Assembly: GCF_012272825.1 (NCBI RefSeq)
Contig: NZ_JAAWWS010000134.1
Span: forward strand, 1-64,000
DNA from: Wenzhouxiangella sp. XN79A
GTDB lineage: Bacteria > Pseudomonadota > Gammaproteobacteria > Xanthomonadales > Wenzhouxiangellaceae
Direction of reading: 5' to 3'
Length of the DNA: 64,000 nucleotides
How positions within the stretch are numbered: the first letter of the stretch is position 1; each line of letters opens with the position of its first letter. A model generated the notes under the pieces. It saw only the letters and a list, made by a program, of their open reading frames with translations, had not been told where the DNA came from and made no database searches. Position numbers and translations under genes: made by a program. Shown here in pieces: positions 9,891 through 24,633 of this stretch.

Positions 9891-9948
9891 ACCGCTGGCC
9901 GGGCTCGCCGCGCCGGTGCCGCGGGCTCTGGTACTCTTCGGCCTCGGG

Positions 9949-10024
9949 GCCCCGGTAGCTCAGCGGATAGAGCAGCCGCCTCCTAAGCGGCAGGTCGCAG
10001 GTTCGACTCCTGCCCGGGGCACCA
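9949..10024 (+). tRNA. tRNA-Arg (anticodon CCT)
   Basis: The acceptor stem GCCCCGG pairs with CCGGGGC, the anticodon stem GCCGC pairs with GCGGC, and the loop CTCCTAA gives anticodon CCT at 9982-9984. The T arm reads GCAGGTTCGACTCCTGC. The 3' CCA is encoded (10022-10024). Confidence 0.97.
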
Positions 10025-10062: not shown

Positions 10063-13000
10063 ATGTCCGACCGACCGATCCCCTGCTGCCCTGCCCTGGC
10101 TGCGCCGGCTCGAGCGATCCTCTCGCTGCTGCCGCTCGCGGCCCTGCTGCTTCTCGCCGGCCGTGCCTGGGCCGATCCGCCGCTGTGGACGCTGGCCGAG
10201 GACAAGTCGCGCCCGAGCGCTGCATCGTCCGTGGCCGGGCTGCCCGAGGCCGCCCGGGTGCCGGTGCGGATCGACGCGGTCGGCCTGGCCGCGGGCAAGG
10301 CGGTGGCGCTGCCGTTCCCGGACGGCCGGACCGTGACGGCAACCGCCGGCGACCCGGTCCGCCACGCCAACGGAGACCTCACGCTGCGGCTTCGCACGAT
10401 GACCAAGGGCAGCGTCGCGATCGACGGCGTACTGACCCGCGGCCGCAGCGGACTGTTCGGCCGGCTGCGGCTCGACGGCCGACTGTGGCTGGTCCACAGC
10501 GAGGCCGGCGGCAGCTGGCTGATCGATGCCGGCCACCCGGCCGTCGAGGTCGATGCGTTCGGCCACGATGCGCTGCATCCCGATGCGCTGGGCCGCGCGG
10601 CCGCCCCGGACCGCCCGCGATCGCCTGCGCCGGCGCCCAAGGACGGCGCGGCCAGCATCATCGACGTGATGTTCATCTACCCGGCCTCGATGCAGCAGCG
10701 CTATCCGGGCGACCTGCTGGACACCCGCCTGAACCACCTGGTCGCGATCGCCAACCAGGCGCTGGCCGACTCGGCGATTCCGGCGGTCGTCCGCCTGGTC
10801 CTGCGCCGCCCGACCGGCCTGCTGCCGACCGAGGACAACCGCGAAATGATCGGGCTGCTGGCCGACGCGCTGGCCGGCGACTTCGTGCCCGGGCTGGAGA
10901 ACCTGGCCAGCATCCGCGACCAGTTCGCCGCCGATCTCGTGGTGCTGACCTGGCCCCACGACATCGAGACGCGCGGCTCCTGCGGGATCGCGTTCTTCCC
11001 GTTTCCGGCCGACGACCCCGACCCGGATTTCGGCGTCCAGATCACCAACGACGGGGTCAGCAACTGGTCGATCTGTTCCGACGCGGTATTCACCCATGAA
11101 CTCGGCCACAATCTGAACGCCCGCCACCAGCAGAACGCCTCGGACGACCCCGACAACGCCAATTACGCCTTCGTGCAGCTGGATCGCTTCCACACCGTGA
11201 TGGGCTCGTTCGGGACCGGCGACGTGAACCGCTTCCTGCGCCTGGACCGATTCTCCAACCCGGACACGACCTGCGGCGGCGGACCGTGCGGCTCGACCCT
11301 GGCCGGTGATGCGGCCGACAACGCGGCCGAAATGCGGCGCCAGCTGGTCCGCATCGCGGCCTATCGCGGCGGCCCGCCGGACAGCACGAGCGCACCGGCG
11401 CCCTCCGACCCGGACAGCGACGGCGACGGCGTGCCGGATTCCACCGATGCCTGGCCGTTCGACCCCGCCGACGGCGAAATCCCGGCACCGCCGCCCCCGC
11501 CGACCTTCACCGACCGTGCGATCCGGACGCCCGGTGATCTCGAGGACCATGAACTGCTGGTCGTCGACAGCGAACGCGACGCCGTGCTGGCCTGGAACCT
11601 CGACGGCAGCTTTCGCGGCGAGGCCGCCCGCCCCGAGCCGGTCGACGCGCTGCCGGTGCTGACCGAGTTCAGCGACCTGGCCGTCGACGGCCGCGGCCTG
11701 GTCTGGCTGCTCGCTTCGGCCGACGTGCGGCGCTACGATCGGGCCACCGGCGACCTGGTCGACGTGTTCCTCGACTCGGCCCGGCCCGAGCCCTTCGAAC
11801 TGCGCAGCGCGTTTCCGCGCGCGCTGGGCTTCGATCCCGACGGCGGCGTGGTGGTGCTCGGCGACGACGCGATCGAACGCTTCGACGCCCAGGGCAACCG
11901 GCGCGCGCCGATCGTGACCGGCGACCCGGCCGACCCGGCCGACTGGAACACCCGGGTCGAACTGCCGCTGCGGGCCTTCGCCTTCGGGCCCGACGGCGAT
12001 TTCTACCTGGCCGAGGGTTCGGCCGGGCGCATCCTGGTGTTCGACGGCGACAGCGGCGAGCGCAAGCCCAACCTGGCCTTCGGCGGCCAGTTGCGGAACC
12101 CGCGCGATCTCGCCTTCGGTCCCGACGGCCGGCTCTACGTCGCCGACGACATCCGCGTGGTGCGGTACTCGACCGACGCGCCGGGCCAGCCCGAGACCTT
12201 CATCCCGACCGGCCGCGGCGGCCTGGCCAGTGCCCGTGCCCTGGCCTTCGGGCCCGACGGCATGCTGTACGTGGTCGACCGGGCGCGCGGCGGCGTGCTG
12301 CGCTTCGACGCCTCGACCGGCGCCTTCGTCGACGAGGCGATCCCGGTCGGCGCCCTGGAGAGCCCGCAATCCATCGCGATCGCACCGAAGCTCAACGCGG
12401 TTCGGCCCGGCCACTCCGGTCACTGGTTCGCCGCCGACCGCTCGGGCGAGGGCTGGCTGGTCGAGGTGCTGCCGAACGGCCGCGCAGCCGTGCTCTGGTT
12501 CACCTACCCGGCGGCCGGCGAGAGCGACGAGCAGCTGTGGCTGACCGGGGCCGGCACCATCGAGGACGATGCGATCGTGATTCCGGACATGCTGCACGTG
12601 CGCGGTCCGCGCTTCGGCCCCGGCTTCGATCCGGCCGACCGCGAGCTGGCGCGCTGGGGCGAACTGACCCTGACCTTCACGGACTGCCGGACCGGCACCG
12701 CCGAGTGGTCGGCCGAGGGGGCGGGCGATGACGCCTACGGCAGCGGCAGCCGGTCGATGACCCGCCTGGCCGGCATCGCCGGCCTGCCCTGCGAACGCGC
12801 ACCGCTGACCGCCGCGCCCGAGCGTCCTGGCGTCAGCGGCCAGTGGTACGACCCGGCCCAGGACGGCCAGGGCTGGCTGCTGCAGGAAGTCCGGCCGAAC
12901 GAACTGTTCATGGCCTGGTTCACCTACGACGACCGGGGTCGGCCGGCGTGGATCGTCGGATCGGGCGTCCTGAGCGATGGTGTCGCCACGTTCGAAGACG

Positions 13001-13215
13001 TGCTGATCACCCGGGGCACCCGGTTCGGCGCCGACTTCGACCCCGCCGAGGTCGAGCGGATCGCGTGGGGGTCGGCGGTGATGCGCTTCGACGGCTGCGC
13101 CGAGGCCCGGATCGAGTGGACCACCGAGCGCTCCGGCTTCGTCGACGGTGCACTGGCACCGGTCCGACTGACCCGGCTCGACGAGCTGGACTGCGCCGAC
13201 GCCGACGGGCCCTGA
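10063..13215 (+). CDS. Secreted metzincin-type metalloprotease with beta-propeller-like region and two copies of a C-terminal Cys domain
   Basis: This 1,050-residue protein has a signal peptide (cleavage near residue 40, RAWA). A zinc protease domain follows with HELGHNLNARH, the HExxHxxxxxH signature of metzincins of the reprolysin-like type. Next come a calcium-binding-like DSDGDGVPDSTD (thrombospondin type 3-like, about 450), a run of NHL-type repeats such as AFGPDGRLYVAD (about 490-775), and two homologous C-terminal domains (about 783-912 and 924-1046). Each of these has a Gly-x-Trp-aromatic opening, FDPA plus WG near the middle and two cysteines. The same domain ends the cyclophilin at 23674-24633. 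It presumably digests extracellular protein. Confidence 0.85.
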   Translation: MSDRPIPCCPALAAPARAILSLLPLAALLLLAGRAWADPPLWTLAEDKSRPSAASSVAGLPEAARVPVRIDAVGLAAGKAVALPFPDGRTVTATAGDPVRHANGDLTLRLRTMTKGSVAIDGVLTRGRSGLFGRLRLDGRLWLVHSEAGGSWLIDAGHPAVEVDAFGHDALHPDALGRAAAPDRPRSPAPAPKDGAASIIDVMFIYPASMQQRYPGDLLDTRLNHLVAIANQALADSAIPAVVRLVLRRPTGLLPTEDNREMIGLLADALAGDFVPGLENLASIRDQFAADLVVLTWPHDIETRGSCGIAFFPFPADDPDPDFGVQITNDGVSNWSICSDAVFTHELGHNLNARHQQNASDDPDNANYAFVQLDRFHTVMGSFGTGDVNRFLRLDRFSNPDTTCGGGPCGSTLAGDAADNAAEMRRQLVRIAAYRGGPPDSTSAPAPSDPDSDGDGVPDSTDAWPFDPADGEIPAPPPPPTFTDRAIRTPGDLEDHELLVVDSERDAVLAWNLDGSFRGEAARPEPVDALPVLTEFSDLAVDGRGLVWLLASADVRRYDRATGDLVDVFLDSARPEPFELRSAFPRALGFDPDGGVVVLGDDAIERFDAQGNRRAPIVTGDPADPADWNTRVELPLRAFAFGPDGDFYLAEGSAGRILVFDGDSGERKPNLAFGGQLRNPRDLAFGPDGRLYVADDIRVVRYSTDAPGQPETFIPTGRGGLASARALAFGPDGMLYVVDRARGGVLRFDASTGAFVDEAIPVGALESPQSIAIAPKLNAVRPGHSGHWFAADRSGEGWLVEVLPNGRAAVLWFTYPAAGESDEQLWLTGAGTIEDDAIVIPDMLHVRGPRFGPGFDPADRELARWGELTLTFTDCRTGTAEWSAEGAGDDAYGSGSRSMTRLAGIAGLPCERAPLTAAPERPGVSGQWYDPAQDGQGWLLQEVRPNELFMAWFTYDDRGRPAWIVGSGVLSDGVATFEDVLITRGTRFGADFDPAEVERIAWGSAVMRFDGCAEARIEWTTERSGFVDGALAPVRLTRLDELDCADADGP

Positions 13216-23673: not shown

Positions 23674-24633
23674 TCAGAGACCTTCGCAGCTGTCGAGGTC
23701 GTTCGGCCGGGTCAGGCGGGCCAGCGGTCGTTCGCCGCTGCCGAACTCCGGCGAGTCATAGCTCATCACCGCGCTGCCGCAGCCGGTGACCTCGAAGGTG
23801 ATCGTGCCCCATTCCTCGACGTTCCGATCGTCCGGGTCGAAGGCATCGCCGAACTGCGGACCGTCGAGAATCACCATCGGCACGGTGACCGCCGACGGGC
23901 CGAAGTCGAAGTTCGCGCTGCCGGCCAGCCAGAACTGCTGGCCGTCGATGAAATCGTAGAGGTAGATCACCAGCGTCGCGTCGTTGCCGGACGCGCCGCC
24001 GTTGGCGATCTCGACGTTGAGCCCGCGACCCGGGTTCTGCGGGTCGAACCAGGAACCGGTATGCAGCGGCATCAGCGGATAGCCGTCGGTCTCGACGACG
24101 CGCTCGATGCGTACCGGACGCAGCGGGTAGTCGCGCAGCGCCTGTGCAGCGATACTGGTCGTCGGAGCCGACTGGATGGACTCCAGCACGTTCAATCCGG
24201 TCACGACTTCGCCGAACACGGTGAAATCGCCGTCGAGGACGTCGTTGACCGCGGTGTTGATGAAGAACTGCGCACGGCCGCTGTCGACATCCGAACCGGC
24301 GAGCGCCATGGCGATCGTGCCCGGCACGTTCAGCCGTCCATTGGACGCTTCGCTCTGAATCGCCGGAAACGGCGGGGGCCGGAAGGCCAGCTCATCGTCG
24401 AATGCGCCGGCCTGGACGACGAAGTCCTCGATTACCCGGTGGAAGATGATCCCGTCATAGAACCCCTGCTCGACATGGGCCAGGAAATTGGCCACGGTAA
24501 TCGGTGCGGCACCCTCGTCCAGTTCGAGGATCATCGGTCCTTCCGTGGTTTCCATCCAGACCGTGCGGGTCTGGGCGTGGGCAGGGGTCAGGCAGGCGAC
24601 GAACAGCGCGGCAAGGACAAGGCGTTGGAGCAT
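23674..24633 (-). CDS. Exported cyclophilin-type peptidyl-prolyl isomerase with extra C-terminal Cys domain
   Basis: This 319-residue protein has a signal peptide (cleaved near residue 20, AHAQ). The cyclophilin domain (about 25-185) shows ITVANFLAHVEQGFYDGIIFHRVI, VVQAG and AQFFINTAVND. Instead of the usual Met/Gln-Gly it retains only part of the canonical pattern, as in other bacterial secreted forms. Residues about 190-319 are a separate domain homologous to the two C-terminal domains of the metzincin at 10063-13215: G-x-W-F-D-P opening, GPQFGDAFDPDDR, EEWG, and two cysteines. It likely folds exported proteins. Confidence 0.9.
   Translation of the reverse strand: MLQRLVLAALFVACLTPAHAQTRTVWMETTEGPMILELDEGAAPITVANFLAHVEQGFYDGIIFHRVIEDFVVQAGAFDDELAFRPPPFPAIQSEASNGRLNVPGTIAMALAGSDVDSGRAQFFINTAVNDVLDGDFTVFGEVVTGLNVLESIQSAPTTSIAAQALRDYPLRPVRIERVVETDGYPLMPLHTGSWFDPQNPGRGLNVEIANGGASGNDATLVIYLYDFIDGQQFWLAGSANFDFGPSAVTVPMVILDGPQFGDAFDPDDRNVEEWGTITFEVTGCGSAVMSYDSPEFGSGERPLARLTRPNDLDSCEGL

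Follow-up and report, generated by a model that had tools for sequence, protein, structure and literature searches.

An often paired, probably barrel-shaped module on exported proteins of Wenzhouxiangella sp. XN79A and related bacteria

Introduction

Why do two unrelated exported enzymes of one bacterium end in the same domain? The question is raised by a 64,000-nucleotide stretch of DNA from Wenzhouxiangella sp. XN79A (RefSeq assembly GCF_012272825.1, contig NZ_JAAWWS010000134.1, positions 1 to 64,000), referred to here as the window. It carries a gene for an exported M12-like metzincin, P0001, and one for an exported cyclophilin, P0002. The initial annotation of this DNA had proposed that both proteins bear one and the same tail, twice in the metzincin and once in the cyclophilin. 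The shared module is about 125 residues long and recurs on many other exported proteins of related bacteria. With a probability of about 0.5, it is an accessory binder that keeps exported proteins attached to a shared ligand of the cell surface or matrix. A binder, rather than a part of the catalysed reaction, is the most plausible role because the module sits terminally on many different exported proteins, either singly or in pairs.

Three homologous copies in the window

Copy A, the first of the metzincin pair, covers residues 784-912 of P0001 (12409..12795, forward strand), and copy B, the second, covers residues 924-1047 (12829..13200, forward strand). The single copy C covers residues 190-317 of P0002 (23683..24066, reverse strand). 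All three are supported by alignment and profile, B and C also by a structural model. Local alignment scores are 213 for A-B, 161 for A-C and 123 for B-C, against 1000 shuffles each, which average 30-33 and reach at most 63, 65 and 53, respectively; the corresponding z values are 30, 22 and 18. Judged from their sequences, the three window copies are homologous.

The G-x-W-[FY] motif is encoded at 12418-12429 in A, at 12838-12849 in B and, as GSWF, at 24046-24057 in C. The central FG-x-x-FDP motif reads RFGPGFDP in A (12610-12633), RFGADFDP in B (13021-13044) and QFGDAFDP in C (23833-23856). The RL[TA] motif starts at 12763 in A and at 13165 in B, and spans 23710-23718 in C. The first and second cysteine codons are found at 12685-12687 and 12790-12792 in A, at 13096-13098 and 13192-13194 in B, and at 23779-23781 and 23686-23688 in C. 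The common tail, its coordinates and its motifs had all been described accurately by the initial annotation.

A profile built from the three copies detects 16 copies in 12 proteins of the same genome at an expectation value (E) of at most 2.3e-10, a count that leaves out two weak rows (E 0.016 and 0.48). Pfam and NCBIfam yield nothing over cut-off for the module (PHROGs and PADLOC were not searched), in agreement with the earlier failure to name a Pfam family for it. A sequence search of the PDB gave no match with the three copies and weak ones with a set of 56, the best being retinol-binding protein 1iiu (E 0.051). No title or abstract describing the module was found in the literature; as the domain is nameless, it could not be searched by name, and this result is no proof of its being unpublished. 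The module thus appears to be a sequence family new to Pfam and NCBIfam on what is predicted to be a known type of fold.

Predicted fold and conserved residues

The AlphaFold2 models of copy B (mean predicted local distance difference test score 92.9, predicted template modelling score 0.85, from 56 sequences) and copy C (88.0 and 0.80, from 26 sequences) agree with each other. Neither of the outcomes that the initial annotation had named as refuting its proposal was thus encountered, as Pfam and NCBIfam gave no known family and the predictions for these two copies do not differ. Both are all-beta and have eight main strands in identical order, the last of which is split in B. The module is probably an eight-stranded antiparallel up-and-down barrel of calycin-like shape. 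In both models, the last strand is followed by a four-residue helix only, and the long C-terminal alpha helix that accompanies the barrel in most lipocalin-like calycins (PMC2954199) is absent. Calycin barrels are capped at one end by a 3-10 helix; the secondary-structure strings of B and C, which distinguish only between helices and strands, contain no N-terminal helix.

The top rows of a Foldseek search, at E 0.01-0.02, are a biogenic amine-binding protein, designed barrels, nitrophorins and a streptavidin monomer. In a second structure comparison, designed barrels and streptavidin or avidin rank highest for both copies. Copy B is closest to 6czj (Z 11.9, root-mean-square deviation 2.5 over 98 residues) and the streptavidin monomer 4jnj (Z 10.9, 3.1 over 103 residues); copy C is closest to 6czj (Z 10.8, 2.7 over 98 residues) and 5lur or 4jnj (Z 9.4, 3.0 over 97-100 residues).

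According to PMC2954199, the signature of calycins is a tryptophan of the first strand latched by a lysine or arginine of the last strand. Among 278 aligned copies of the module, the GxW tryptophan is conserved in 93%, the C-terminal basic residue is arginine in 85% and lysine in 2%, and glycine 17 of the copy B construct is present in 100%. The signature tryptophan and arginine occur together in 214 of the 278. In the copy B model, the GxW tryptophan lies in strand 1 and the [TA]RL arginine in the last strand; in this predicted structure, GxW and [TA]RL occupy the positions of the calycin Trp-Arg signature.

Both cysteines are present in 226 of the 278 copies, only the second in 36, only the first in none, and neither in 16, several of these being fragments truncated ahead of the second position. 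Once its signal peptide is removed, at a point judged by eye, the cyclophilin retains two cysteines only, and the module contains both of them. In the model, the order of the strands puts the two termini at one end of the barrel, along with the turn after strand 6, which holds the first cysteine, and the tail, which holds the second, so a disulfide would be geometrically reasonable. The cysteine patterns fit such a bond. The opposite end, which is the mouth in calycins, would be formed by the DPxRSGEG, GxRFGxxFDP and FGSG loops together with the turn that follows WFTY.

Several points weigh against a calycin-like binding barrel closed by a disulfide in each copy. Up-and-down barrels are a common arrangement, and Foldseek returned no match at E of at most 0.001, the best being 1.1e-2 with a template modelling score of 0.53. 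Profile comparison detected no kinship, with a probability of 0.14% over 3 columns for avidin PF01382 (9 sequences) and of 0.41% for the lipocalins of PF08212 (16 Lipocalin_2 sequences); of 14 avidin and 20 Lipocalin_2 loci, those entered were the ones whose reading frame could be resolved by script. The scores are no better than those of the module against ten families of its own host proteins, and none of the 56 copies matches the Pfam avidin or lipocalin models at E of at most 1. Conservation shows a trend towards the mouth that is not significant (mean 0.362 for 32 mouth residues and 0.296 for 8 at the other end, p 0.15). The 36 copies with the second but not the first cysteine imply that a bond within the copy cannot be a universal rule. 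Finally, 9 of the 56 copies show similarity to the carbohydrate-binding family CBM_56 (PF22184) at E of at most 1, the best at 0.001, and this family was rejected as an identification: among the scores listed, none reaches the 27-bit cut-off (best 20.6 bits), and the match spans only 18-31 residues in the hosts scanned whole. It aligns the hairpin around WFTY with the end of the profile and leaves the rest of the domain unaligned. The CBM56 fold is a beta sandwich. No CBM56 entry is found among the structure matches listed, an absence that is uninformative.

The disulfide that had been suggested at the outset therefore keeps indirect support, from the 226 copies with both cysteines and from the cyclophilin, and loses it for the 36. 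Most of the latter (31) belong to a cluster of leucine-rich-repeat hosts (loci L042, L081, L098, L113, L114, L117, L124, L140 and L145), whose copies lack the first cysteine and mostly retain the second. In pairs of such copies, a disulfide could join one barrel to the other rather than close each of them separately.

As for the absence of measurable kinship, a distant common descent with avidins and lipocalins may still hold, because the two failed the same profile test against each other. The similarity in shape could also be read functionally. Streptavidin, avidin and nitrophorins are among the nearest solved structures, as would be expected of a small-ligand carrier that scavenges a vitamin, lipid or pigment. 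Such a role is very improbable for a domain that has no sequence kinship to avidins or lipocalins, is fused to many different proteins among the 157 hosts sampled and reaches 69 copies per genome.

Distribution

When 84,980 species genomes were scanned, 116 pattern matches arose, and 29 loci among them were confirmed. These loci are labelled Tahibacter, Dokdonella, Lysobacter, Wenzhouxiangella and unclassified Lysobacterales, Lysobacteraceae or Rhodanobacteraceae; the remaining labels are broad (Gammaproteobacteria, Proteobacteria, Pseudomonadota and one Burkholderiales metagenome-assembled genome). The term order refers here to the shared order code of the genome collection; in the NCBI taxonomy, Tahibacter and Dokdonella are placed in Lysobacterales and Wenzhouxiangella in Chromatiales.

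With a query of 56 copies, the module was found in 56 of the 61 genomes of the group to which the window belongs, its own included, at 4-69 copies each. It is present in at least 110 of 151 genomes drawn across the order, where up to 28 candidates were scored per genome and the counts are floors. A class-wide draw of 229 genomes gave matches only in the window's own genome and in G065 (up to 19 candidates scored per genome). A phylum-wide draw of 200 genomes gave them only in the window's own genome, in one member of the order and, weakly (E 3.4e-6), in G572 (up to 21 scored). The G572 protein itself matches 4 of 299 genomes, three of its own family and one of the window's order. In these searches the family is order-dominated with few outliers. 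The early description as lineage-specific is accurate insofar as the module belongs overwhelmingly to one order of the collection, and has to be relaxed for outliers that belong to two further families of the class and for one phage record.

That record, Dolichospermum phage Dfl-JY45 (PP438435.1), is 209 kb long and labelled as a cyanobacterial phage. It contains three module matches (E 3.6e-23, 2.5e-11 and 2.0e-7) at L203:7914-8807, L203:6877-7851 and record positions 185965-186108, the best of which lies in a protein with an exported-like start. Searches of plasmids gave no module match, and searches of viral contigs with A1 or the phage protein as query gave none that was confirmed; both relied on short peptide patterns, which are insensitive. 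A related domain defines a divergent sibling group in one other family of the class, at loci L205-L207, L209 and L210 (genomes G572, G582 and G599), with one relative at L208 (G047, of the window's order); one protein of this group was scanned with Pfam and had nothing over cut-off.

Host proteins and architecture

The host proteins were sampled from the window, the 29 named loci, 11 stretches of the same genome, among them L058 with nothing but a weak row, and a further 100 taken from the best-scoring rows of the group and order searches; the sample is accordingly biased towards typical copies. It holds 291 copies in 163 proteins, or 279 copies in 157 proteins after removal of six duplicate hosts. 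With the module masked, BLAST groups the 157 distinct hosts into 41 clusters, 22 of which are single proteins. This figure is not a count of unrelated folds, as Pfam families recur across clusters (metzincins in at least two). The two enzymes seen at first do carry the tail, and they represent a far larger family.

Most hosts are exported by their appearance: a rough signal-peptide rule is passed by 143 of 151, compared with 52 of 151 for shuffled upstream sequence. The last copy ends within 15 residues of the protein end in 92 of the 153 hosts with a complete 3' end and more than 100 residues before the C-terminus in the other 61. Among the latter, 57 have a signal peptide called by the rule, and the module begins at most 38 residues past the estimated cleavage point in 55 of them (median 12); in the other two it lies 191 and 531 residues past cleavage. 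At L159 and L079, the pair sits well within the chain.

A tandem pair is found in 122 of the 157 hosts and a single copy in 35; none has three or more. The linkers of the pairs are short (median 5 residues, range 0-13). In a tree built from 277 copies with FastTree, the label changes between first and second of a pair only 16 times, and six position groups all cluster (44 changes against a shuffle mean of 165); the tree is based on 129 columns, has many unresolved forks, and near-copies favour such clustering. Pairs thus seem mostly to move as pairs. In one host cluster, module-bearing genes also stand near one another, with four in L110 (G049:C6:140000-159000), four in L113 and three each in L114 and L124, which suggests local expansion by gene duplication.

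The abundance of pairs, the lack of triples and the short linkers would suit a built-in dimer, and the module could serve solely as a spacer or for dimerisation and bind no ligand. Since the mouth loops are about as conserved as the strands (0.362 against 0.370) and the terminal position speaks for more than spacing, this is a highly unlikely explanation.

A Pfam scan of 52 hosts assigned a family over cut-off to 29 and none to 23. The families include Reprolysin metzincins, cyclophilin, kelch, M14 carboxypeptidase, leucine-rich repeats, di-haem peroxidase, copper-binding proteins, DUF1800, glucose/sorbosone dehydrogenase, sulfatase, the Beta-lactamase family, FG-GAP and laminin G. Among the di-haem peroxidases (CCP_MauG), the module is C-terminal in L026 and N-terminal in L051. 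One further module gene (G000:C36:46515-46901, L054) lies about 2.4 kb from a Lipocalin_2 gene (G000:C36:49297-49719, L201), one of two in that genome, probably by chance.

As a carbohydrate-binding module does, the domain might direct each host enzyme to an environmental polymer or a prey surface instead of the surface of the producer. The metzincins, the carboxypeptidase, the sulfatase, the glucose/sorbosone dehydrogenase, a laminin-G lectin-like protein and a GH53-like host below cut-off could be interpreted in this manner, as could the weak CBM_56 similarity. In addition, Wenzhouxiangella AB-CW3 is described in PMC7691419 as preying on Gram-positive cells. Substrate targeting nevertheless remains doubtful: the cyclophilin, the copper-binding protein, the di-haem peroxidase and the Beta-lactamase-family serine hydrolase share no polymer substrate, and a single target fits them better.

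The occurrence on exported proteins also raises the possibility of an export or maturation determinant, such as a recognition signal for type II secretion, a folding aid or a pro-domain cut off after export. The gspD gene of type II secretion exceeds the cut-off in 52 of the 56 genomes that carry the module and in 3 of the 5 that lack it. The four module-bearing genomes without it comprise three assemblies that are 73-84% complete and one with pieces of the gene near contig starts, and two complete genomes of the order, G037 and G054, have neither gspD over cut-off nor the module. A precedent may be seen in the metzincin Mep72, which, according to PMC4334185, is released from its tandem binding domains during export. 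Such a determinant is nonetheless unlikely. Three genomes whose gspD exceeds the cut-off (G048, G056 and G057) lack the module, the hosts include many proteins other than proteases, and the module may occupy either end of its host, unlike a C-terminal sorting domain. The co-occurrence is based on five module-free genomes only and does not make the module the signal.

Proposed function

A surface or matrix tether, the role given even odds above, could work as follows. The barrel of about 125 residues would be closed at one end by the strand-1 tryptophan packing on the last-strand arginine, and a disulfide would staple this closed end by linking the turn after strand 6 to the C-terminal tail. 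Singly or as a closely linked pair, the barrel would be grafted onto one end of diverse exported proteins. Its role would be non-catalytic, with the mouth as the putative site that binds a ligand of the cell's own surface or extracellular matrix, most likely a glycan. Proteases, isomerases, oxidases and propeller proteins would thereby be kept near the cell after export, and two linked copies would add avidity. The surface, matrix or substrate-binding role suggested by the initial annotation is likewise an inference.

A motive for surface retention may be drawn by analogy from Wenzhouxiangella AB-CW3, whose medium shows no proteolytic activity; its authors assume that the enzymes are anchored to the outer membrane (PMC7691419). 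A more far-reaching and tentative version of the tether would make the paired barrel an address tag by which a hitherto undescribed system retains proteins at the surface in the Lysobacterales-Wenzhouxiangella group; one ligand would hold dozens of different exported proteins per genome on the outer surface or in the matrix.

The module reaches up to 69 copies per genome on many kinds of exported protein, yet no Pfam or NCBIfam model describes it. Naming it would flag many hypothetical proteins as exported and possibly tethered. A name would also open to testing the question of how proteolytic Wenzhouxiangella retain lytic enzymes that are not found in the medium.

The two host genes in the window

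The metzincin gene spans 10063..13215 on the forward strand, from an ATG start to the stop codon inclusive, as seen from its translation and Pfam matches. P0001 consists of a signal peptide, a catalytic domain, an NHL-type stretch and the two C-terminal barrel modules. The signal peptide, judged by eye to be cleaved after ...GRAWA, is encoded at 10063..10173. The catalytic domain (10663..11214) matches Reprolysin_3, Reprolysin_4 and Reprolysin_5 over cut-off and contains HELGHNLNARH at 11095-11127. One stretch of the propeller-like region is matched by the NHL repeat model PF01436 (12091..12147, E 3.1e-6). The part between the catalytic domain and the NHL stretch (DPDSDGDGVPDSTDAWPFDPADGE) resembles, by eye, calcium-binding thrombospondin type 3-like repeats and was unmatched in the Pfam scan.

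The longest reading frame of the metzincin begins with a GTG at 9916 and crosses a tRNA-Arg (CCT) gene at 9949-10024. Because this reading passes through the tRNA, the ATG at 10063 is the likelier start. In a relative (L069), the metzincin frame opens with what is apparently the same translated tRNA, so the order of tRNA and metzincin gene seems to be kept.

The cyclophilin gene, likewise identified by translation and Pfam, occupies 23674..24633 on the reverse strand, stop codon included. Its signal peptide (24574..24633, reverse strand), by eye, is cleaved after ...PAHA, and residues 25-179 form the cyclophilin-type peptidyl-prolyl isomerase domain (24097..24561, reverse strand; PF00160, Pro_isomerase, E 1.5e-37). 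The identities that the initial annotation had given to both enzymes are borne out by these matches, and its view that both are secreted is in keeping with their export-signal-like starts.

Matches to the tail-bearing cyclophilin that span most of the tail occur in 18 of the 43 genomes of the window's family. G008 is a weaker nineteenth, and in one more genome the gene is interrupted at a contig end. A second cyclophilin, for which the match is limited to the cyclophilin part, is present in 42 of the 43; the tail-bearing protein is, by its sequence matches, a separate paralogue. One genome contains two adjacent tail-bearing cyclophilin genes (G015:C1:3471430-3473432).

Comparison with known systems

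The module most resembles the calycins, a superfamily that comprises the lipocalins, avidins and fatty-acid-binding proteins (Pfam clan CL0116 in PMC2954199). The likeness lies in the predicted barrel and in the positions of the tryptophan and arginine, and avidin (PF01382) provides the best-matching natural fold, 4jnj. The module differs from calycins by its two-cysteine pattern and by its existence as a fused accessory that is often paired.

In architecture, the window metzincin may be compared with Mep72 of Pseudomonas aeruginosa, a metzincin whose C-terminal part consists of two carbohydrate-binding domains in tandem; it is exported by type II secretion, and its autolysis is delayed by alginate (PMC4334185). 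Both proteins end in two tandem accessory domains, and their catalytic parts are related: the Mep72 model NF052434 scores 83.1 bits, against an equivalog cut-off of 645, over residues 200-457 of P0001 only, which correspond to the catalytic part. The tail of Mep72 is recognised by Pfam, whereas that of the window metzincin has no match there, and the window metzincin has an intervening NHL-type stretch.

The C-terminal sorting domains of secreted proteins, such as the CTD of type IX secretion, offer a further parallel. In both cases, one domain occurs on many exported proteins of one lineage and often at the C-terminus. Unlike these sorting domains, the module stands far from the C-terminus in the 61 of 153 hosts described above, mostly just after the signal peptide. 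By analogy, the address tag envisaged above might, tentatively, be the functional counterpart of the type IX sorting domains, but in the form of a binding module that can be used from either end of its cargo.

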